The notes beneath the pieces were generated by a model. The model saw only the letters and a list, made by a program, of their open reading frames with translations. It was not told the origin of the DNA and did not search any database. A stretch of DNA of 64,000 nucleotides from Thermodesulfovibrio sp. GTDB lineage: Bacteria > Nitrospirota > Thermodesulfovibrionia > Thermodesulfovibrionales > UBA6898. Positions 24,078 to 38,279 of the stretch are shown piece after piece (positions within the stretch are counted from its first letter, which is position 1; the number at the start of each line of letters is the position of its first letter). Location of the stretch: assembly GCA_013824615.1 (NCBI GenBank), contig PNOC01000014.1, positions 1 through 64,000 of the forward strand, read 5' to 3'. Position numbers and translations under genes: made by a program.

Positions 24078-25199
24078 ATGAAGAAAAGAATATTTTTTGC
24101 CCTTGCAGGTCTTATTGTTGTCATTGCTGTGCTGGGTGGCGTCAAGGCTCTGCAGATCAGGGCGATGATCGCCCAGGGCAAGAAGTTTGTGCCGCCTCCC
24201 GAGACCATCACCACCTCTTTGGTAAAAGCAGACTCGTGGGAGACCACCCTGACCTCAGTCGGGACACTCAATGCTGTTCAGGGGGTAACTGTTGCTGCGG
24301 AACTGGCAGGCAAGGTGGTCAGGATAGAGTTTGAGCCTGGCACTGCGGTAAAGAAGGGGGATATCCTGCTGCGACAGGACACCTCCTCCGAAGAAGCTCA
24401 ACTTCCGGGGGCCCTGAGCCAGGTAAACCTGTATCTCACCAATCTCGAAAGGGCAGACCAGTTATTTACAAAGGGCATTATCTCCAGGTCCGACCGTGAT
24501 CTTGCAGTCGCAAACGCCGGGCAGGCAGAGGCGCAGGCAGCGAATATTCGGGCTACCATCGCAAAAAAGACGATTCGTGCACCTTTCAGCGGCCATCTTG
24601 GAATCCGCCAGGTAAACCTGGGCCAGATACTCCGGGAGGGGGACCCTATTGTTACCCTGCAGTCGCTCGACCCTGTATACGTTGACTTTACCCTGCCCCA
24701 GCAGCAGTTCCGGCAGGTGCGTTCCGGTCTCCCGATTCGGATAACGTCAGATGCCCTTCCGGGGGAACCGCTCTCAGGCCGGGTTACGACCATAAATCCA
24801 AAGGTGGAGACGGAAACGCGCAGCATCAGGGTCCAGGCAACGCTTGCCAACCGCGGAGAGAGGCTTCGTCCCGGCATGTTTGTTAACGTGGCCGTCGGAC
24901 TGCCTGCACGTCAACAGATATTGGCCGTCCCTGCCACGGCTGTCCTCTATGCGCCATACAGCGACTCTGTATTTATCGTCGAGGAGAGCAAGGACGCCAA
25001 AGGCGGAAAAATACTGCGTCAGCAGTTCGTGCGCCTTGGGGAGAAACGCGGTGACTTTGTGGCCGTCAGCACCGGGCTCAAAGAAGGTGAGACGATAGTT
25101 ACCACCGGTGTTTTCAAGCTGCGCAACGGCCAGTCAGTGGTTGTCGACAATAAGCTCGCCCCTGATTTTCAGCAGGCACCCAGGCCTGACAACAACTGA
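24078..25199 (+). CDS. RND efflux membrane fusion protein
   Basis: This periplasmic adaptor connects an RND inner-membrane pump to an outer-membrane channel. The 373-residue protein has an N-terminal membrane anchor (residues 5-24) without a lipobox, a barrel-sandwich hybrid domain (VTVAAELAGKVVRIEFEPGTAVKKGDILLRQD), a short helical hairpin (about residues 110-155), then APFSGHLGIRQVNLGQ and the beta-barrel domain. It starts 14 bases upstream of the permease and has a GGAG ribosome site. No TolC-like gene follows. Confidence 0.94.
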   Translation: MKKRIFFALAGLIVVIAVLGGVKALQIRAMIAQGKKFVPPPETITTSLVKADSWETTLTSVGTLNAVQGVTVAAELAGKVVRIEFEPGTAVKKGDILLRQDTSSEEAQLPGALSQVNLYLTNLERADQLFTKGIISRSDRDLAVANAGQAEAQAANIRATIAKKTIRAPFSGHLGIRQVNLGQILREGDPIVTLQSLDPVYVDFTLPQQQFRQVRSGLPIRITSDALPGEPLSGRVTTINPKVETETRSIRVQATLANRGERLRPGMFVNVAVGLPARQQILAVPATAVLYAPYSDSVFIVEESKDAKGGKILRQQFVRLGEKRGDFVAVSTGLKEGETIVTTGVFKLRNGQSVVVDNKLAPDFQQAPRPDNN

Positions 25200-25213
25200 C
25201 CAATGCCCTGTCA

Positions 25214-28200
25214 ATGAAAATAACTGACCTTTTTATCCGCCGTCCGGTACTTGCCCTGGTAGTGAACCTGCTTATTATCATTGCCGGCCTGCAGGCGATC
25301 CGCACCCTTAATGTCCGCCAGTATCCGCGCAGTGAAAACTCGGCCGTCACCGTCACCACGGTCTATATCGGCGCCAGTGCCAACCTGGTTCGCGGGTTCG
25401 TCACCACGCCTCTGGAGCGGGCTATTGCAGCGGCAGACGGCATCGAGTATATGGAGTCTCAGAGTAGTCTCGGCCTGTCCACGATCAAGGTGCGACTCAA
25501 GCTCAACTACGAACCGACCAAGGCCCTGGCTGAAATCAGCTCCAAGGTAGACCAGGTGCGCCGGGACCTGCCGCCTGAAGCCGAGGTGCCGATTATCAAT
25601 ATTGAGTCTGCAGACAGCCAGTTCGCCTCAGCCTATCTCAGTTTCACCTCGGATATGCTTAAGCAGAATGAAATAACCGAATATCTGGTGCGTATTGTAC
25701 AGCCGCGCCTGTCGGCCATCGAAGGGGTGCAGCGGGCAGACATCCTCGGTGCCCGTACGTTTGCCATGCGTATCTGGCTCAAGCCGGAATTGATGGCCTC
25801 ACTCAACATCAGCCCGGCCCAGGTGCGCCAGGCTTTGGCGGCCAACAACTTCCTTTCAGCCCTGGGGCAGAGCAAGGGGGCGTTCATTCAGGTCAACATG
25901 ACCGCCAACACTAATCTCAGCACCGTCGAGGAGTTTAAGAATCTTGCGATACGCGAACAGGGCGGCAGCATTGTGCGCCTTGGGGAGATCGCCGATGTGC
26001 TTCTGGGGGCTGAGGATTATGATGCTGAGGTACGTTTTTCCGGCCAGACCGCCGTCTTTATGGGGATATGGCCTCTCCCCAATGCCAACTCTCTGGATGT
26101 TATCAAAAAGGTGCGGGCCGAGATGGATGCCATCCAGCGCGACCTGCCGAGCGGTATGCAGTCCCGCATTGCCTATGATGCCACCAACTACATCACCAAC
26201 GCTATCCGCGAAGTGCTCAAGACCCTCGGCGACACGCTTCTGATTGTCATTGTCGTCATATTTCTTTTTCTGGGTTCCTTCCGCTCGGTCTTCATCCCGG
26301 TCGTGGCGATTCCGGTCTCCCTGATCGGAGCCGTCTTCCTGATGCAGTCCTTCGGCTTCACCGTCAATCTGCTCACCCTGCTGGCTGTTGTCCTCTCTGT
26401 CGGTCTTGTTGTCGACGACGCCATCGTGGTGGTCGAGAACGTGGAGCGCCACCTGGGCCTGGGCAGATCACCCACAGAGGCCGCCCTCATCGGCGCCCGC
26501 GAACTGGTCGGGCCTGTCATCGCCATGACCATCACCCTGGCAGCGGTCTATCTTCCGATAGGCCTGCAGGGCGGACTGACCGGTTCACTCTTCCGGGAAT
26601 TCGCCTTCACCCTGGCCGGGGCCGTCACCATCTCGGGTGTTGTGGCCCTGACCCTGTCACCGCTCATGTCCGCACGGCTGCTCAAGCCGGGAATCAGCGA
26701 GCACGGCCTGGCCGGCCGCATCTCCCGGGACTTCAAGCGGCTCAAAGGGGCCTACGGCAGCCTGCTTGATGCGACCCTAAAGGCGCGGCCCGCGGTCTAC
26801 ACCGTCTGGATCGTGATATCACTGCTGACTGTGCCGATGTTCATCATGTCTGCCCGGGAACTGGCCCCCACCGAAGATCAGGGAGTAATCTTCGGCATTA
26901 TGGACGCATCGGCCAATTCAACCCTCGACCAGAACAGCCGGTATGCGGCTGCAGTGAACGAAGCCTTCAAGAGCCCTCCTGAAACCGACTTCACCTTCCA
27001 GATCACCTTCCCCAGTTCAGGCTTTGGGGGCATGGTCCTTAAGCCGTGGGACGAGCGCAAGAGAAACGTCTTTCAGATCCTGCCGGAGATGCAGCAGAAA
27101 CTGCAGGCGATCCCCGGCATACAGATCTTCCCGGTAACACCTCCGGCCCTCCCCGGCGGCGGACAGTTCCCGGTGGAGTTTATACTGGCCTCAACTGCCG
27201 AGACAAGCCAGATCCTCGACTTCGCACGCCAACTGCAGATGAAGGCTATGAAAAGCGGCATGTTCGCCTTTCCGCCGCTGATCGATGTAAAGATCGATCA
27301 GCCGCAGTCGGAATTTATCATCGACCGGGACAAGGTTGCCTCCCTGGGCCTCAACCTGGCTCAGATTGGCGCTGACCTAGGAGGCATGGTGGGAGGCGGC
27401 TTTGTCAACCGTTTCGATATTGCAGGACGCAGCTATAAGGTAATACCGCAGATACAGAGGATAGGCAGGCTTAACCCTGAACAGCTCCGGGACATCCATG
27501 TCACCGGCCCCAACGGCACCCTGATCCCTCTGAGCAGTATTGCAACGCTCAAGGATTCGGTGGTGCCCCGTTCACTCAACCGTTTTCAGCAGCTCAATGC
27601 GGTAAAGATCAGCGGCGTTGCAGTCCGGCCTTTGGACGAGGCCCTGAGGTTTCTGGAGGACGAGGCTGGCAAGATCCTGCCAAAGGGATATGTCCTTGAC
27701 TATACGGGAGAGTCCCGGCAGCTGCGCACCGAGGGGAGTAAATTCCTGGGCGCCTTCGCACTTGCGGTCATCCTGATATTCCTGGTGCTGGCGGCCCAGT
27801 TCAACAGCTTCCGGGACCCCTTTGTCATCCTTGCAGGTTCAGTACCGCTGGCCATATTCGGAGCACTGCTCTTCACCTTTCTGAAGATACCCGATCCGAA
27901 CACCCCCTTCTGGACCAGGGGCTGGACAACGACGCTGAATATTTATTCCCAGGTTGGCCTGGTGACCCTGGTGGGTCTGGTATCAAAAAACGGCATCCTG
28001 ATAGTACAGTTCGCCAACCAGCTGCAGCTACAGGGCCATACAAAGCTGGAGGCAGTACGCGAGGCCTCCATGACGCGCCTGCGGCCGATCCTGATGACCA
28101 CGGCTGCCACCATCGCCGGACATTTCCCGCTGACCCTGGTCACCGGCGCCGGGGCCGCTGCCCGAAACTCGATCGGCCTCGTGCTGGTCGGAGGCATGTT

Positions 28201-28321
28201 CGTCGGCACCCTCTTCACCCTCTTTGTCGTCCCCTCGATCTATATGCTCATCGCCCGCGACCACAGCAAAGACCGTGAAAGCAATGCTGCAGCCCTGGCT
28301 ACAGAAGCCCAGGTCTCTTAA
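25214..28321 (+). CDS. RND efflux permease (HAE1/AcrB-like)
   Basis: This is a proton-driven export pump of the hydrophobe/amphiphile efflux class. The 1035-residue protein has twelve membrane helices: one at the N-terminus, a large periplasmic loop, five in the middle, then the same layout in the second half. The helix-4 motif GLVVDDAIVVVENVERH carries the paired Asp residues of the proton relay. The length is typical. With the adaptor gene 14 bases upstream it forms a two-gene operon; substrate cannot be told from sequence. It converges on a histidine kinase gene with 37 bases between the stops. Confidence 0.95.
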   Translation: MKITDLFIRRPVLALVVNLLIIIAGLQAIRTLNVRQYPRSENSAVTVTTVYIGASANLVRGFVTTPLERAIAAADGIEYMESQSSLGLSTIKVRLKLNYEPTKALAEISSKVDQVRRDLPPEAEVPIINIESADSQFASAYLSFTSDMLKQNEITEYLVRIVQPRLSAIEGVQRADILGARTFAMRIWLKPELMASLNISPAQVRQALAANNFLSALGQSKGAFIQVNMTANTNLSTVEEFKNLAIREQGGSIVRLGEIADVLLGAEDYDAEVRFSGQTAVFMGIWPLPNANSLDVIKKVRAEMDAIQRDLPSGMQSRIAYDATNYITNAIREVLKTLGDTLLIVIVVIFLFLGSFRSVFIPVVAIPVSLIGAVFLMQSFGFTVNLLTLLAVVLSVGLVVDDAIVVVENVERHLGLGRSPTEAALIGARELVGPVIAMTITLAAVYLPIGLQGGLTGSLFREFAFTLAGAVTISGVVALTLSPLMSARLLKPGISEHGLAGRISRDFKRLKGAYGSLLDATLKARPAVYTVWIVISLLTVPMFIMSARELAPTEDQGVIFGIMDASANSTLDQNSRYAAAVNEAFKSPPETDFTFQITFPSSGFGGMVLKPWDERKRNVFQILPEMQQKLQAIPGIQIFPVTPPALPGGGQFPVEFILASTAETSQILDFARQLQMKAMKSGMFAFPPLIDVKIDQPQSEFIIDRDKVASLGLNLAQIGADLGGMVGGGFVNRFDIAGRSYKVIPQIQRIGRLNPEQLRDIHVTGPNGTLIPLSSIATLKDSVVPRSLNRFQQLNAVKISGVAVRPLDEALRFLEDEAGKILPKGYVLDYTGESRQLRTEGSKFLGAFALAVILIFLVLAAQFNSFRDPFVILAGSVPLAIFGALLFTFLKIPDPNTPFWTRGWTTTLNIYSQVGLVTLVGLVSKNGILIVQFANQLQLQGHTKLEAVREASMTRLRPILMTTAATIAGHFPLTLVTGAGAAARNSIGLVLVGGMFVGTLFTLFVVPSIYMLIARDHSKDRESNAAALATEAQVS

Positions 28322-28358: not shown

Positions 28359-30848
28359 CTATATCCCGCCTTCATCCAGCACACTCCGTATCTTCTTCAG
28401 CAGGTCCATTGGTGCTATCGGTTTATTGATGATGACAACGCCGCTGCCGATTGCCGTCTTATCCCTGATAATATCAGGGGAGTATCCGCTTGCAAAAATA
28501 ACCTTGATATCAGGCCGCAGCTGCCTGATATGGTCATAGACTTCCTTGCCGCTCTTCTTCGGCATAATAAGATCTGAAAAAAGAAGTTGAACCCGGTCTT
28601 TGTTTTCGATAAATTTACTGACGGCGTCGTCACCATCAACAGCAATAATAACGGTATAGCCGAATTCCTTGAGTACCGACTCGGTCAGATTTCTTACGGA
28701 TTCGTTGTCCTCGGCAAGCAGGATTGTTTCGGTTCCTCCCACCGGGTTTACCGCGGCAGCAGGCGTTTTCTCCCCGCCTTCGCGAGAGGCTATAAGGGGC
28801 AGATAAATTTTAAAGGTTGTGCCTATGCCGGGTTCACTATAGACAGTGATATGCCCCTCATGCTGTTTAATAATGCCGTAAACAACGGCAAGCCCAAGCC
28901 CCGTGCCTTTGCCTACTTCTTTCGTCGTATAGAAGGGCTCGAATATGTGCTCGCTTGTTTCTCTGCGCATCCCCTTGCCGGTATCGGAGACCGTTATCAT
29001 GGCATAGGCGCCGGGCTTGGCAATGCCCTGGAACGTATCATCAAGCATAATTTGCTCTGTCTCAACCGTTAAGGCCCCGCCCGTTATCATGGCGTCGCGG
29101 GCATTGGCTGCAAGATTCATCAAGACCTGCTCAATCTGGTGCAGATCAGCAAGGATAGTCAGTTTGTCCCCGGAGAGAGTCAGCTTACAGGCGATATCCT
29201 CTCCTATCACCCGCATGACAAAATTCTCCACCTTCATGATAAGCTGGTTCAGGTCAACAGGTTTTCTGTCAATGGCCTGTTTTCTGCTGAAAAGAAGAAG
29301 GTCCTTCGTAAGATGCGCTGCCCTGTCTGAAGCCTCAAGCATCTGTTCAATGTTCCGCCGGTGGGGATCGTCAGCAGCCATCTTCATCAGGGTCAAATGG
29401 CCATAGCCCATAATGGCACTCAATATATTATTGAAATCATGAGCCACACCGCCGGCAAGGGTGCCGATTGATTCCATTCTCTGTGCCTGGCGAAGCTGGT
29501 CTTCGAGCTTCCGGTGTTCAGTGATGTCCCTTATAATGCCCCGTATTACTGCTATGGTGCCCAGTTCATCCCGGATCGCTGCAGCATTGACCGAAACATG
29601 CACTTGTTGGCCGTCACGGCAGAGCAGGGTTGTTTCAAAGTCTATGACAAAGCCATTTTTTTCAAGAAGCTTGAGATAAAGGATCCGGTCATCGGGATGC
29701 ATGTAAATGTCGCTGATGGTTACGCTCACGAGGTCCTCTTTCGAAGAATATCCCAGGCGCGATACGAATGCCGGATTCACATCGATAAACCTGCCATCGT
29801 ACGTCGAGATAAAGATCATATCCCGCGACTCCTCAAAAAGACTGCGATATTTTTTTTCACTGTCTTTGAGCGCCTCTTCGGCCACTCTGCGTTCGGTGAC
29901 ATCCCGGTCCAGCCCGCGGTAGCCCCTGAGCGTTCCGTCTTTGGCCAGCAGCGGCGAGCCGTTCGTGGACACCCAGATAATCCTGCCATTCTTTGTCTGG
30001 ACGGCATTGACCAGGTTATCAGTTTCCACGCTGCTCCTGATGATGGCAAACGCAGCACGCTTAAACTCCTCACGTCCTTTCTCGGGATGGATATCGTAAA
30101 AATGCATTTTGCCGATCAGCTCCTCGGGACGGTATCCAAAAACCGATTCTGCCACCGGACTTACGTACGTGTACAGCCCCGACGCGTCGATCTCCCAAGT
30201 TACCGTAAGGCTCTGCTCGGCAAGCTGATTGAAGCGCTGCACACTGTCCTGCAGATCTTCCTCAATACGGTATCTTCTCAGTCTGCCGGCAAGCAGGTTT
30301 CCCAGAAGTGCGGTGCATACCGGGTAGATGATGATGACAGGAAGGGCCAGGGTGCTGATAGTTTTTCGAATGACTTCCTGCGGCAGCAGGAACATACAGA
30401 CTATCATAGCGGTATGCACGACGGTACCAAACAGATACAATTCGGAAAGCGCTACCTCCCTCGACGCGCGGAAGCGGTAGTATCTCCAGGCCAGGCCGAT
30501 TACGCCGGACGAGATAATAGTGGCAACACCCATGAGGGCGCCACCGCCGCCAAGATTGAGACGGTAAGCGCCTGCAATTGCCATGGCCAGGATTGCGGGT
30601 ATTGTACCGAAAAAGAGGCCGGTCAGACCAAGGAGGATGGTGCGGGTATCAAAAATAATACCGGATTCCCATCTGGCTGGTGTAGCCATAAGGACAATGG
30701 CTATCACGCCGATGATAAGTCCGGAGACTGCCTGGTTCAGGGCTGGAAGAGCTACTCTTTTCCCACGGTAAAAAATATCGTAGATCATACCGAGGGAGAG
30801 CAGCAGAGCGGCATTATTGATAAGGCTGATGAAAATAGTATCGTTCAT
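28359..30848 (-). CDS. Hybrid histidine kinase with LytS-type membrane sensor
   Basis: The 829-residue protein begins with a five-to-six helix membrane domain like the 5TM sensor of LytS/YhcK (residues 5-190, with DTRTILLGLTGLFFG and GGGGALMGVATIISSGVIG). It continues with two PAS domains (about 203-325 and 327-450), a HisKA domain with the phospho-acceptor in GGVAHDFNNILSAIMGYG, a HATPase domain (DTGKGM and GTGLGLAVVYGII), and a C-terminal receiver (about 710-829) with the phospho-accepting Asp in FSDLIMPKKSG. No DNA-binding response regulator is adjacent, so it either phosphorylates a distant partner or passes phosphate through its own receiver. The ligand is unknown. Confidence 0.93.
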   Translation of the reverse strand: MNDTIFISLINNAALLLSLGMIYDIFYRGKRVALPALNQAVSGLIIGVIAIVLMATPARWESGIIFDTRTILLGLTGLFFGTIPAILAMAIAGAYRLNLGGGGALMGVATIISSGVIGLAWRYYRFRASREVALSELYLFGTVVHTAMIVCMFLLPQEVIRKTISTLALPVIIIYPVCTALLGNLLAGRLRRYRIEEDLQDSVQRFNQLAEQSLTVTWEIDASGLYTYVSPVAESVFGYRPEELIGKMHFYDIHPEKGREEFKRAAFAIIRSSVETDNLVNAVQTKNGRIIWVSTNGSPLLAKDGTLRGYRGLDRDVTERRVAEEALKDSEKKYRSLFEESRDMIFISTYDGRFIDVNPAFVSRLGYSSKEDLVSVTISDIYMHPDDRILYLKLLEKNGFVIDFETTLLCRDGQQVHVSVNAAAIRDELGTIAVIRGIIRDITEHRKLEDQLRQAQRMESIGTLAGGVAHDFNNILSAIMGYGHLTLMKMAADDPHRRNIEQMLEASDRAAHLTKDLLLFSRKQAIDRKPVDLNQLIMKVENFVMRVIGEDIACKLTLSGDKLTILADLHQIEQVLMNLAANARDAMITGGALTVETEQIMLDDTFQGIAKPGAYAMITVSDTGKGMRRETSEHIFEPFYTTKEVGKGTGLGLAVVYGIIKQHEGHITVYSEPGIGTTFKIYLPLIASREGGEKTPAAAVNPVGGTETILLAEDNESVRNLTESVLKEFGYTVIIAVDGDDAVSKFIENKDRVQLLFSDLIMPKKSGKEVYDHIRQLRPDIKVIFASGYSPDIIRDKTAIGSGVVIINKPIAPMDLLKKIRSVLDEGGI

Positions 30849-30921: not shown

Positions 30922-33900
30922 TCACAGTTTAATAACAAACAACAGCTCTCTGTCGCCAAGAAGAAACCTGGACCTCCGGACCTTGACCACGACGCTCTCA
31001 CCCTTCTTTTTATCCAGGAGATGGATCTTTACATCACTGACGTCTTCCACCGAAACCCCGTCGAGGGAGAGCACCACATCACCTTTTTTGAGCCCGGCCT
31101 TTTCAGAGATGCTCTCTTTGGGAAAATCGATAACAACCAGCCTCTTCTCCTCCTCCTTGAACTGGACCATCAGGCGCGGGGACTCACGATAGGCGACCGG
31201 TTCAGAAAACAGGATAAAGTCGGCGATCTGCTCGCCCGGTTCGTCGCTGTTCAGGATTATGGAGTAGTCAAAACCGTTAAGCCGAAAGGCCCGCCGCGGA
31301 ATGCCGGAACCGAACGCCATGTGTCCGCCGCCTGCAAGGACCACCATCTGGTAGGCCGGGTTTTTCTGCAGAAACGCATCAAGGGTATGCGCCATCGACT
31401 CATCCCAGAGAACCTGGGACTGATAAAAGAAATCGAAATTTCTTTCAGCATTATGCATATGCCGCAGAAAGGTCTCTTTCAGCCGCTGACGGTAGGCATC
31501 GTCCGTAAAGTCCATGTCAGCAGGCAGCTCCCCAAGCTCATCCTTTGTTAAAGCAAGCATACCAGCCTTCGAGACCTTTGAAACAAGCTCTTTCCTGATA
31601 TTCAGCGCCACAACCGGAATCTTGTATTCACGCGCATAGAGCAGAATTTCACGATAGAGATTATAGTCAAAGCTCCAGCGTTTAAAGTATTCGGATTTTT
31701 TCAGGAACTCCTTTTCTCCTATCTCCCCGGCAATATACGCATCAAGGACCTTCTGAAATGGCAGCTGGAACATTTCCATGCCGATCGCGATTTTTCCGTT
31801 CTTCCTATGCAGGCCCCGGATAAGCTCGAACTGGGCACGGTGGTGGTCAAAGCGGTCATGAACCTCTCCTGCATAGACGATCTTCTTGCTGCCGACTTTC
31901 CCGATTATCCCCTGCAGGTCAACCAGGCGGGTGATCTCAACAGCAGGCACAGCAGCAGCCAGTTCTGCCCTGAGTCCTTCCTGCTTCGGGGTGATCTCCT
32001 TTACGGTATTCCTGCCGTTTTTAAAGGCAACCGTGCTGTACTTGCCATAATGCAGGATACGGGGGAAATACCTCGCGATATCCTCAGGCGTGTTATAGTC
32101 CATGCAGGCGATGACGCTTTCTTCTGAGTAGGGATTTTCCCTGACCACCACTGAAAAATCTCCCTCTGCCTTCCTGAGCTTTCCGAAGATCCTGGCAGCG
32201 AGGGGGCTGTCCGAACCGAGTATAAGTAAAGACGCCTGTTTCATATCGTCATGCGTTATTTCCTGCTCATACCTGATAACGAATCCCTCTTTTTTCAGAA
32301 GATCGATTATCCCGGCAAAATCTTTCTCCCTGCCCGCCGGAACCACAGCGATTTTCTTGGTATTATTAATCAGCCGCGCCAGCACTACAGGATACTCCCC
32401 GGCGGAGAACTTTCTGAAGAGATCGAACTGTCCGTCGATTACGAGCTCGACAGGAGCTCCGTCAACCTCGAGCTCGATATGCTCAACCTCTTTTTCGACA
32501 TTGATAAACTTCTGCAGGGTCCCTTCCCGGCTGCGGATAACTACCGGAAGCCGGAGACTGTATGCCTTCCCTTTCTGGCTGAGATCGAACGAGACCACGG
32601 CCTTTGCTCCCCGGTACGACATCACGACATTCTGCAGCTCGAGTTCCGGCATCCCTTTCCCATCAATCCACTGCGTAAAGAACCAGCCCAGTTTCTTTTG
32701 CGCTGCCGCCTCAAAAGCCGCCTGTATGTCAAGCCACGAAGCAGTCTTAAAAAGATTGTCTGCAGCAAAGCGTCTCAGGGCAGTCCGGAATGCTTCTTCC
32801 CCGACAAGTTCTCTCAGCATATGAAAGACCATGCCTGCCTTGCTGTAGCCTACAGCGGCTGACGCCCGGTCAGTCCTGCCTGAAAAAACCGCGAGAGAAA
32901 AATCCTTTTCAGGGGTCACGGCACTCTGATAGGCGGTCAGCATCTGCCGCCGGTACGCAGCACCGCCGCCTTTCAGGTCCTCGTAGAGGTGGTCCGCCAG
33001 ATAGGTAGCCAGGCCCTCGGTCCAGTTGCCCCTGCTATAGTCGGCATAGACACCGTTGCCGAACCATTGGTGAAGGATTTCGTGGCCGAGAGAGGTCTCT
33101 GCTATAAAGGGAAGCCTGACGATATCCTGCCCCAGCAGTGTAAAGGTCGGCATGGAATAGCCGGTAGGCAGGATGTTCTCGACTATTGAAAAGCGTCGAT
33201 ACGGATACTTGCCCAGAAGCCCTTCATACAGATCGAGATACTTCTTTGTATATTCACTATAGTTCCTTGCCAGGCCTGCATCCTCCGGCAGAAAATAGGA
33301 GTAGATATCGATATTATTGTATGTCTCCCTGGAGACAACATACCTGGCAGCAGCAAGGTGTATCCCCATGACCGGGTGGCTGTGCTGAAAAGCAAACTCT
33401 CTCAGTCCGCCTGGGGTATCCCTGGCCACAATCTCGTCCGCCTCTGCTATGCCTTCAAACCCCAGGGGCAGCGTTGCAGTTAAAGCAAAAACAGCCGGCC
33501 CGTTGACAGAGGGATACCAGTTGCCGGTCAGGACAATACCTTCCGGCCCGATCAGGTTGCCTGAAACCACACCGGCATTGTGCGACGTATCGGTCTGCGG
33601 CGGACTGACAGCAGCCACAGAATATTCGACACGGATCGTGTTTCCGGCATGAAACGAACCGAGAGGAATCTCCTGGTTAACGGTATTGATCGCAAGGGGA
33701 AGTCCGTTCAGGGTCACAGACTTGACCGTCAGTCCGGCCAGGCCGATGACCACATTCTTCCGGTCGGAAACCGTTATCGTGGAAATCCCGATCAGTGTAT
33801 GCTGCTCAAGATCAAAACTGACCTTCAGGTTATGATGCGGAGGGGTCATCTCAGCAGACAACGCCGCCGGAAATATAATAAGAACGAGAAGTGCCCCGAC

Positions 33901-33924
33901 AACAAATTCATATAATCTATGCAT
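30922..33924 (-). CDS. Exported M1-family peptidase fused to ChaN and PDZ domains
   Basis: With the start at 33924 (AGGAG site; signal peptide MHRLYEF...ALSAE) the protein is exactly 1000 residues. Residues 30-510 resemble M1 (gluzincin) peptidases: the zinc site is HEILH at 281-285 with the third ligand E303 in NWTEGLATY. The usual GAMEN exopeptidase motif is missing; the equivalent place reads GYSMPTFTLLG. Residues 665-905 form a ChaN/DUF399 domain (YAGEVHD, GMEMFQ, GGGHMAFGSGIP), a fold linked to heme binding in ChaN and to metalloprotease activity in TIKI. Residues 925-1000 are a PDZ domain. The three parts suggest a periplasmic proteolysis or heme-handling enzyme, but the substrate is unknown. 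Confidence 0.88.
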   Translation of the reverse strand: MHRLYEFVVGALLVLIIFPAALSAEMTPPHHNLKVSFDLEQHTLIGISTITVSDRKNVVIGLAGLTVKSVTLNGLPLAINTVNQEIPLGSFHAGNTIRVEYSVAAVSPPQTDTSHNAGVVSGNLIGPEGIVLTGNWYPSVNGPAVFALTATLPLGFEGIAEADEIVARDTPGGLREFAFQHSHPVMGIHLAAARYVVSRETYNNIDIYSYFLPEDAGLARNYSEYTKKYLDLYEGLLGKYPYRRFSIVENILPTGYSMPTFTLLGQDIVRLPFIAETSLGHEILHQWFGNGVYADYSRGNWTEGLATYLADHLYEDLKGGGAAYRRQMLTAYQSAVTPEKDFSLAVFSGRTDRASAAVGYSKAGMVFHMLRELVGEEAFRTALRRFAADNLFKTASWLDIQAAFEAAAQKKLGWFFTQWIDGKGMPELELQNVVMSYRGAKAVVSFDLSQKGKAYSLRLPVVIRSREGTLQKFINVEKEVEHIELEVDGAPVELVIDGQFDLFRKFSAGEYPVVLARLINNTKKIAVVPAGREKDFAGIIDLLKKEGFVIRYEQEITHDDMKQASLLILGSDSPLAARIFGKLRKAEGDFSVVVRENPYSEESVIACMDYNTPEDIARYFPRILHYGKYSTVAFKNGRNTVKEITPKQEGLRAELAAAVPAVEITRLVDLQGIIGKVGSKKIVYAGEVHDRFDHHRAQFELIRGLHRKNGKIAIGMEMFQLPFQKVLDAYIAGEIGEKEFLKKSEYFKRWSFDYNLYREILLYAREYKIPVVALNIRKELVSKVSKAGMLALTKDELGELPADMDFTDDAYRQRLKETFLRHMHNAERNFDFFYQSQVLWDESMAHTLDAFLQKNPAYQMVVLAGGGHMAFGSGIPRRAFRLNGFDYSIILNSDEPGEQIADFILFSEPVAYRESPRLMVQFKEEEKRLVVIDFPKESISEKAGLKKGDVVLSLDGVSVEDVSDVKIHLLDKKKGESVVVKVRRSRFLLGDRELLFVIKL

Positions 33925-35235: not shown

Positions 35236-38184
35236 TTACCGGGACCGGTTATTCAGGCATGAGACTGCAGAGTGCAGACGGGAGAGATAAAGCCCCTGTT
35301 CCTTGCCGAGCGGCAGCATATTCGCAAGGGCTGACTGGATAGCAAGCTGTGTTAGATCAAAGCCCATCTGCCTGAGCCGCTGGTCCCCTGTCTGGTCGGC
35401 GGCTCTCAGAAACGTTGCGGTCAGCGTGGCCTTACCGGTATCCCAGAGAATCGCATCTGCCCCGCTGAAGTACTGCGAAACCCCGGTGAGCGTCCCGTTG
35501 ATGCGGTCACCGGTCCAGGTAAATTCGACCTCGTTCGGCCACTGACCATAGGCTGATCCGTCACCGATAAGGGTCGGGCCAAAATCATTCAGAGTCCGGG
35601 CCCAGGAGACGAGCAGACTGCCCGGGGTGATTGCCGGGATCCCGATAGCAGCATTATCTGTGTCAAGCTGGAGTTGGTACAGGTTGTTCATGTCATACAG
35701 GGTCCCCAGCCATAGCTGTGTTGCCGGGTAAGTTCCGGGGCCCGTGACCGCCCTGTCCAGCCAGAAGCCGTAGTCTGTCCCCTGCTGCCTGGCCAGAACA
35801 TAATTCTGCGTCACAGCACGTGCAAGCCCAGAGCGATAGTCATCGAGGTAGCCTGCCTCATCGCCGGCCAAGCCAATGAATCTGAAGGCCGATAGCCACT
35901 GAGAGGCGACCCGGCCGGTAAGACCGGCCCACTCATTTGTGGGCGGCTCGCCTGCTGCGCAGGCGGCCGCAGGCCGATCGACACACAGATAGTCCCGCAT
36001 GGAAGATGCCCCGCGCTTCACCATATCGACCACAGTTTTATCTCCGGTCAACCAGTAGTAGAGAAAGAGATTCTCAAAATAGGCATGACTGCTGTTGAAA
36101 TCAGAACGATAGCCCCCATATCCGGCTGGCGACTGACCACAATAAAAATAGAGATCGCCCGGGGCGCATTGATAAATCTGCGTATGCAGCATCCGCAAAG
36201 CTGCCGGGACCGCAAGCTCATCGAGCCAGTCAGTCTCCCCGGTCCTCATCGCCCGGACTGCCCCGGTCTTCGTTGTATTGTGATAGTCGGTCCAGGTGGA
36301 GCACCAGTAGGCATCGTCCCATGCCTCGCCGGGGGTTGGGTCGCTCTCGCCGCAATCACCAACTTCTCCCGATCCCCAGGAGTACCCCCAGTACCGGGGA
36401 TAGAGACCGAAGGTCATGATACCGGAAATCCCCTCCTCTTCAATCTTCTGTCCGGTCGTATCGAGCACCGTGCTCACCAGGGTATCATAAGCTGCAAGGT
36501 CAGGGGAAAGGGTCCCGACAGGAAACTCCTCAACTGCCTGAGAATCCAGAAAGGTCCTGGCGTGGGGCCATGCGCGCAGAGCGTGGTTGAGAGGCGCCCA
36601 GATTATCCGGCCCAGATTATCTTTAGAGAGGGAAACATCGGGCGGCAGTACACTGACCGCAAACGTCGCATACAGGCCCTGCCGCTGTCCTATCCAGGCC
36701 TTGTCCCCGAGCAGGTCTATTGCAAGGTTGCCATCAGGGAGGAGCCTGAGGGCCTGCGGTTCATACCGGTGCATGTGATCGATAGCCATTGCGATCGAAC
36801 CATTCGGGCTGCTCATTACGAAAAGGCCCCAGTCGGCCTTTGTCCCGGTATCTCCCGGGGTTCCCGGAACGCTAATATCAAAAGAGAGGAAATCGGTCCT
36901 CGAAGTCCTGAGACTTTGACGGACCCAGGCCTCCTGGCCAGATACAACCCCTGACTGGAGAACCTCAGAGCTGAAACCGCCCAGGGCAGTGACAGTTAAA
37001 GGACCCTGCATATCCGGTAAGAGCGTATTCCGTATGCGGGACATAAGCAGCCCGTTCGGCACTAGAGAAGAACCGTCTCCAGGGTCGCAGGTCAGATAGC
37101 TGCAGAGGGCTCCCTCCCATGCCGCTGCCTGACGCACGATTGCAGTCGGTGACCCGGCAGTAAACACATATCGCCGGAAGGATGCCAGCTTCCCTCCACC
37201 CACCTCCGGCATAGTATACTCACCCTTCACCGTTACTATTGCTGCCAGAGGACCTGTATGCTCAACCTCGACAGAACGGATGACCGTGTGGTCACTGTTG
37301 GACCCGTTCACCACAGCAGTCATTGCTCCCCCGTTGACGAGCCGGGTATCGTCCTGCAGCCGGATTTCGTCAAAGAGGAGATCAGGACTCCCGCCGAGTT
37401 TGAACGTGGCCGCCCCCGTGTTAACCGTTATCTGGCTGCCTGCCTGCTGCAGGGTCAACGCCACCTCCGGCTGAGGATTTGAGCCTGCAGAACCATCAGT
37501 GACAAGCCGGTAAAAAGTCCGGCCATTCGCCTGCACCGTGGCAGGAAAGGTGACCAGAAGCCACTGAATCGGTGCCGTGATATCAGTTCTGCCGGCATTG
37601 CGGCGGGCCAGCACCTCAAACTCAGCCGGGATTGTCGCCCCTGAAACATCAGTGATAGCAAGGGTGCCGACATCATATATGAGCATACTCAGGGGGATAG
37701 GAATGCCGCTGCGTACCACCTCACTGCTCCGGGAAATGCCCTGTGTCTCTTTCACTCTGAGCGTCACTGACGTTGGGATGTTGCTGCCACTGATCAACAG
37801 GCCCGAGACAGTAACCGGCCCCCCTGAAACCGTGAGTGTGCCATGCAGGACTGAACCGCTTTCACCGGCAGACTCGTACCCGCTCTTCAGCGTTACAGCC
37901 GCCTGCAGATCAAGGAACAGATCCTCCGAATGTTCGGCGTTCCGGATCGAAAGAGTGTCCCCGTCTGCTGCTTCTGCATAGGCCGAAGTAATATCCGGGT
38001 AGTCATACGTTGTGCCGGGTGAAAGCCTTTGTACGAGGGGAAACGTTGTAAGCGCTTCAGCTGATTTTGCAGAATAAACAACAAAGAAACTCCAGAGCAG
38101 CAGATACAGGAACAGCTGAAATTGAAAAACCTGCCGGCATCTGCTGGGGCGAGTTCGCCCTGTATTCCCTGACATCCACTGCAT
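35236..38184 (-). CDS. Large secreted protein, PcRGLX/PL26-like
   Basis: The 982-residue protein has a hydrophobic export segment near residues 24-44, a short beta-helix-like region (about 60-140, with TLSIRNAEHSEDLFLDL and GTLTVSGGPVTVSGLLIS), then a region that looks like the RIFT-barrel domain of PcRGLX/YetA-like rhamnogalacturonan lyases (SRSSEVVRSGIPIPLS). After a beta-sandwich it ends with a helical toroid-like domain rich in Tyr, Trp and His (SHAYFENLFLYYWLTGDKT). The family assignment is by pattern, not search. The start at 38184 has a GAGGTGG site and is preferred to a GTG five codons earlier. It converges on the glycosyltransferase with a 12-base gap. Confidence 0.6.
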   Translation of the reverse strand: MQWMSGNTGRTRPSRCRQVFQFQLFLYLLLWSFFVVYSAKSAEALTTFPLVQRLSPGTTYDYPDITSAYAEAADGDTLSIRNAEHSEDLFLDLQAAVTLKSGYESAGESGSVLHGTLTVSGGPVTVSGLLISGSNIPTSVTLRVKETQGISRSSEVVRSGIPIPLSMLIYDVGTLAITDVSGATIPAEFEVLARRNAGRTDITAPIQWLLVTFPATVQANGRTFYRLVTDGSAGSNPQPEVALTLQQAGSQITVNTGAATFKLGGSPDLLFDEIRLQDDTRLVNGGAMTAVVNGSNSDHTVIRSVEVEHTGPLAAIVTVKGEYTMPEVGGGKLASFRRYVFTAGSPTAIVRQAAAWEGALCSYLTCDPGDGSSLVPNGLLMSRIRNTLLPDMQGPLTVTALGGFSSEVLQSGVVSGQEAWVRQSLRTSRTDFLSFDISVPGTPGDTGTKADWGLFVMSSPNGSIAMAIDHMHRYEPQALRLLPDGNLAIDLLGDKAWIGQRQGLYATFAVSVLPPDVSLSKDNLGRIIWAPLNHALRAWPHARTFLDSQAVEEFPVGTLSPDLAAYDTLVSTVLDTTGQKIEEEGISGIMTFGLYPRYWGYSWGSGEVGDCGESDPTPGEAWDDAYWCSTWTDYHNTTKTGAVRAMRTGETDWLDELAVPAALRMLHTQIYQCAPGDLYFYCGQSPAGYGGYRSDFNSSHAYFENLFLYYWLTGDKTVVDMVKRGASSMRDYLCVDRPAAACAAGEPPTNEWAGLTGRVASQWLSAFRFIGLAGDEAGYLDDYRSGLARAVTQNYVLARQQGTDYGFWLDRAVTGPGTYPATQLWLGTLYDMNNLYQLQLDTDNAAIGIPAITPGSLLVSWARTLNDFGPTLIGDGSAYGQWPNEVEFTWTGDRINGTLTGVSQYFSGADAILWDTGKATLTATFLRAADQTGDQRLRQMGFDLTQLAIQSALANMLPLGKEQGLYLSRLHSAVSCLNNRSR

Positions 38185-38279
38185 CAAGAACCACCTCACA
38201 TCCTCTCTGACGCCTTAAGCTCAGCTTATCAGCAGGCTGCAATTATGTCAATGGCCTGTGGCAAATGGAGGGAATTTCA

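Follow-up and report, generated by a model that had tools for sequence, protein, structure and literature searches.

Which part of a chain that joins two potential active sites does the chemistry, and on what? The question is raised by a gene in a 64,000-nucleotide stretch of DNA from Thermodesulfovibrio sp. (hereafter the window). A preliminary description, made from the letters alone, had read this gene as a triple fusion of an M1 peptidase, a ChaN domain and a PDZ domain in one exported chain, with a second possible active site and without the GAMEN motif expected of an M1 aminopeptidase. We examined the architecture of the chain, its recurrence in other genomes, and the fate of its two sites across the family.

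Architecture of the chain

The gene lies on the minus strand (33924..30922), begins with an ATG at 33924, and its open frame and translation give 1000 residues without an internal stop. Three of its parts score over their Pfam cut-offs: Peptidase_M1 (PF01433) at residues 280-419 (E 1.4e-14, 54.6 bits against a cut-off of 27.7), ChaN (PF04187) at residues 676-878 (E 1.8e-62, covering model positions 4-212 of 213), and PDZ_2 at residues 917-985 (E 3e-11). The best similarity of the PDZ domain, in NCBIfam, is to the HtrA/DegP type. The hydrophobic N-terminus of the protein ends in ALSA-E, a hydrophobic N-terminus is likewise found in aligned orthologues, and this signal-peptide-like segment suggests export and a periplasmic location. 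These results bear out the triple fusion, as a chain predicted to be exported, and the presence of two potential sites. They also add two domains that had been overlooked: one is Ig-like (residues 426-497), and the other, here called domain X, is an alpha/beta domain without a family name (about 498-664). The features of the gene are as follows.

30922..33924, minus strand: M1-X-ChaN-PDZ fusion gene, 1000 aa (open frame, translation, orthologues)
33853..33924, minus strand: signal-peptide-like N-terminus, residues 1-24 (sequence; model helix 2-22; hydrophobic N-terminus in aligned orthologues)
33289..33852, minus strand: M1 N-terminal beta domain, residues 25-212 (phmmer to tricorn factor F3 30-433; AlphaFold2 and Foldseek to M1 peptidases)
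32650..33288, minus strand: M1 catalytic domain, residues 213-425 (PF01433, Foldseek)
33130..33183, minus strand: VENILPTGYSMPTFTLLG, replacement of the GAMEN strand, residues 248-265 (sequence; phmmer alignment to F3; type conserved in orthologues and paralogues)
33016..33084, minus strand: zinc site H281-E282-x-x-H285-x17-E303 (sequence)
32845..32847, minus strand: Tyr360, position of the M1 catalytic Tyr (phmmer alignment to M1 structures)
32434..32649, minus strand: Ig-like beta domain, residues 426-497 (secondary structure of the model)
31933..32433, minus strand: domain X, flavodoxin-like alpha/beta, residues 498-664 (no Pfam or NCBIfam family)
31210..31932, minus strand: ChaN/Tiki domain, residues 665-905 (PF04187; profile match to C. 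jejuni ChaN 2g5g)
31858..31866, minus strand: GE-x-H motif, E687 and H689 of the 2His/2Glu set (alignments of relatives, C. jejuni ChaN match)
31774..31776, minus strand: E717 of the 2His/2Glu set (alignments of relatives)
31321..31323, minus strand: H868 of the 2His/2Glu set (alignments of relatives)
30925..31209, minus strand: C-terminal PDZ domain, HtrA/DegP-like, residues 906-1000 (PF13180; NCBIfam similarity to DegP/HtrA PDZ)

An AlphaFold2 model of the fusion (72 orthologues) has a mean pLDDT of 90 and a pTM of 0.83. In Foldseek, the first part of the model matches the M1 peptidases F3, IRAP, ERAP1 and APN (E 1.9e-27 for F3). With tricorn factor F3, aminopeptidase N and ERAP/IRAP the fusion shares the N-terminal, catalytic and Ig-like folds, the HExxH plus Glu and the catalytic Tyr, but it has no GxMEN, a spacing of x17 rather than x18, and X-ChaN-PDZ in place of the M1 C-terminal helical domain. 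The ChaN part has a profile match to C. jejuni ChaN (2g5g; E 5e-8), and the two are alike in the full-length Pfam match and in the GE-x-H, Glu and C-terminal His positions; the fusion differs in that its ChaN sits within a 1000-aa M1/PDZ chain and the Tyr of GSYH is not conserved. Domain X is a separate alpha/beta domain between M1 and ChaN, with no match in Pfam, NCBIfam or PDB sequences. Its fold weakly resembles the flavodoxin-like domain of BcsB and subdomains of gingipain and GH84 proteins (best E 6e-4, low TM), and it is probably a spacer or binding module.

Spread, origin and relatives of the fusion

Of 41 genomes, made up of that of the window and 40 others from its order or closer, 35 have a match, mostly as a single frame of ~1000 aa. 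A scan of species genomes yielded 369 confirmed relatives of the query, and nearly all of the 80 that were kept are full-length; their hosts are Nitrospirota (Thermodesulfovibrionia), Deltaproteobacteria/Syntrophaceae and one Schekmanbacteria MAG. The full-length chain occurs, by our own count, in 48 of 246 Nitrospirota genomes taken in an even draw; in genomes from the phylum of a Syntrophaceae locus the figure is about 13 of 247. The source genome has no second copy of the gene.

In the M1-X tree all fusions fall into one group (SH-aLRT 99), so the fusion had a single origin or very few. The M1-only protein L128 lies inside this group, most simply as a later loss of ChaN-PDZ. A sequencing or assembly join of two genes has a negligible probability: orthologues in one open reading frame come from dozens of independent genomes, across Nitrospirota and some Desulfobacterota, and form one clade of the M1 tree, which rules out such an artefact. 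The preliminary description had named a join of this kind, or a loss of the ChaN metal or heme residues in homologues, as grounds for giving up its reading. Neither was found: the fusion recurs as one ORF in many genomes, and no homologue long enough to include the ChaN residues has lost them.

In paralogues, the slot between domain X and the PDZ domain holds an M28 peptidase or nothing. The M1-X-M28-PDZ sisters (e.g. L113 and L117) resemble the fusion in their GAMEN-less M1 domain, domain X and C-terminal PDZ, but they carry the M28 peptidase where the fusion has ChaN and belong to a separate M1 clade. In one chain of 1327 aa (L134:50-4030), PD40 beta-propeller repeats precede M1-X-M28-PDZ.

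Across 80 loci we found no conserved operon partner of the fusion gene, and no conserved neighbour points to a substrate. In the window, a hybrid histidine kinase gene (5TMR-LYT, PAS repeats, receiver; 28359-30848, minus strand) lies 73 bp downstream on the same strand and is not a conserved neighbour. Positions 35236-38199 (minus strand) encode a protein of 987 aa that reaches the cut-off of no Pfam family (weak resemblance to the PcRGLX central domain, E 6e-4), and positions 24078-28321 (plus strand) an RND efflux adaptor and AcrB-type permease pair.

Different fates of the two potential sites

The M1 zinc ligands H281, H285 and E303 and Tyr360 at the catalytic position are all present in the fusion protein. 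M1 peptidases usually have the spacing HExxH-x18-E. The site had first been written as HEILH-x17-NWTE; it is indeed intact, but the spacing was slightly misplaced, as 17 residues separate H285 from E303 and 14 separate HEILH from NWTE. The absence of GAMEN was correctly noted: the strand reads VENILPTGYSMPTFTLLG (residues 248-265) and contains no GxMEN. In the phmmer alignment, where one-residue shifts are possible, Thr254 occupies the position of the GAMEN Glu and no acidic residue is aligned with it.

GxMEN is also missing in orthologues and in the 25 paralogues examined. All 25 of these M1 proteins without ChaN (M1-X alone, M1-X-PDZ and M1-X-M28-PDZ) carry a replacement motif of the same type, e.g. 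VENFWETGFGMPSFTLLG. In the M28 paralogues a Glu (WETG), a candidate for the missing one, lies one residue ahead of where Thr254 stands. Loss of GAMEN is therefore a trait of the M1 clade and not of the fusion, and we rejected it as a mark of the latter.

M1 members without GxMEN are already on record (PMC2241622), so that a missing GAMEN alone is not proof of lost aminopeptidase activity. The earlier suggestion that the protein may not be an aminopeptidase keeps its premise but loses its force as an argument from GAMEN alone; it is possible and unproven. The converse, that the M1 half is a conventional aminopeptidase despite the missing motif, can stand beside the readings of the entire chain that are discussed below. 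Those recorded members and the intact zinc ligands and catalytic Tyr speak for it, whereas the absence of an acidic residue at the Glu position, within the possible one-residue shift, speaks against it, and we consider it rather unlikely, though far from negligible.

In the ChaN domain, the 2His/2Glu set consists of E687, H689, E717 and H868. In one alignment of 129 fusion-family proteins, the four residues are kept in 128 of the 128 members that reach the sites, the remaining protein ending at a contig end before H868. They are also kept in 12 of 12 further Desulfobacterota members, which brings the total to 140 of 140. Alignment A2 draws on loci picked up with patterns containing the zinc motif and, taken alone, overstates the invariance of M1; the pattern IGMEMFQ likewise favours a kept E717. 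Whole-profile genome searches are free of this pattern bias, and the ChaN set is kept there too.

The M1 site has a different record. Residues of HExxH and its partners are substituted (e.g. RQxxS, RDxxS) in five members that keep ChaN (L032, L147, L148, L149 and L151). Five others that also keep ChaN lack all or nearly all of the M1 catalytic domain through deletion (L161, L162, L165, L166 and L167); translated DNA upstream of L165, L166 and L167 contains no broken M1. On the ChaN tree, these losses require no fewer than three events of substitution and two of deletion. In the M1 tree L032, L147 and L148 fall together and may represent one loss, and with L149 and L151 three substitution events still remain. 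Standalone ChaN-PDZ proteins (L140-142) nest inside the fusion clade of the ChaN tree. The two sites had initially been given equal weight; both are present, but losses affect the M1 zinc site in some members and the ChaN set in none. This asymmetry suggests that ChaN is the indispensable part.

Among intact members, constraint on the M1 catalytic region matches that on ChaN (mean identity 62% versus 56%), and for this reason M1 is probably active in them. Each of the 10 genomes whose fusion has a defective M1 holds a further M1-X gene with an intact HExxH (one of these, L186, ends at a contig end); where the fusion is intact, the same is true of about 8 in 42 genomes, in a hand tally uncorrected for kinship. 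M1 has probably been lost where another M1-X protein covers its activity. It is conceivable that the M1 peptidase is the main enzyme and ChaN a rigid structural or docking module, given that conservation in intact members peaks in the M1 catalytic region and that the same M1 type occurs without ChaN in many Nitrospirota. Yet zinc sites are repeatedly lost while the chain and its ChaN residues stay, and the polar pocket residues of ChaN are invariant, which makes this arrangement distinctly improbable.

A candidate PDZ-guided hydrolase

Each residue that the 2His/2Glu set matches in the TIKI-type endopeptidase RRSP is essential for Ras cleavage (PMC6254334), and the RRSP positions correspond to residues of Ere esterases (PMC7979712). 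The fusion shares this set with RRSP, Ere esterases and Tiki; unlike these it is a putative periplasmic multi-domain chain, and only a candidate hydrolase. The property described for C. jejuni ChaN, as cited in PMC7979712, is heme binding, and that protein aligns with the same Glu/His positions as the fusion, so the set is neither proof of hydrolysis nor diagnostic alone.

We tentatively favour, just short of calling it probable, a secreted periplasmic PDZ-guided hydrolase in which ChaN would be indispensable and M1 usually active but replaceable. Its substrate would most likely be peptides or proteins. By analogy with HtrA-type PDZ domains, the C-terminal PDZ may dock the C-terminus of the substrate, and the ChaN/Tiki domain, judging from its 2His/2Glu residues, would be the indispensable catalytic part. 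The GAMEN-less M1 domain would serve as a second, accessory zinc peptidase that lacks the usual Glu anchor for a free N-terminus and is plausibly endo- or oligopeptidase-like. The M28 peptidase in the equivalent paralogue slot argues, by position and analogy, for ChaN as a hydrolase working with the same PDZ. It is possible, although on the doubtful side, that the ChaN/Tiki domain is a genuine bacterial periplasmic peptidase that acts together with a PDZ domain, ChaN and M28 being exchangeable catalytic cartridges on a scaffold of GAMEN-less M1 and X, with M1 repeatedly becoming a pseudoenzyme.

Alternatively, ChaN may bind heme or metal, with M1 and PDZ releasing heme or metal from, or maturing, periplasmic hemoproteins. 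PF04187 is named for heme binding, and the closest solved relative is C. jejuni ChaN, with the heme-binding property cited above. Moreover, in one Desulfobacterota lineage an M1-X-ChaN-PDZ chain runs in frame into a CDF cation-efflux domain (L177:499-4401, minus strand; 1301 aa), and in a relative the start of a cation-efflux gene overlaps the fusion stop by ATGA (L174:1380-1390); this coupling could point to metal handling instead. However, the invariant 2His/2Glu set is known from hydrolases, no heme-uptake gene is found among conserved neighbours, and the Tyr of the C. jejuni GSYH is Gly, Gln or Glu here, a difference that counts only if this Tyr binds heme. We judge a heme or metal role unlikely, and retain the PDZ-guided hydrolase as the preferred reading.

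A survey of microbial PDZ proteins lists an uncharacterized ChaN-PDZ family ('EreA-ChaN-like'; PMC6411480), which resembles the fusion in having ChaN followed by PDZ and differs in that its entry describes no M1 part. We found no published M1-X-ChaN-PDZ chain, M28 counterpart or loss pattern in a search of largely open-access literature, and an earlier description is possible. The parts are each known, and their combination is apparently undescribed within the literature searched.

Although ChaN domains are labelled as heme-binding, the relatives of their fold are proteases and esterases. A widespread family with an invariant ChaN set, repeated M1 loss and a peptidase in the sister slot offers a direct way of testing ChaN domains for enzymatic activity, and it delimits an M1 clade that lacks GAMEN and carries a domain without a name.
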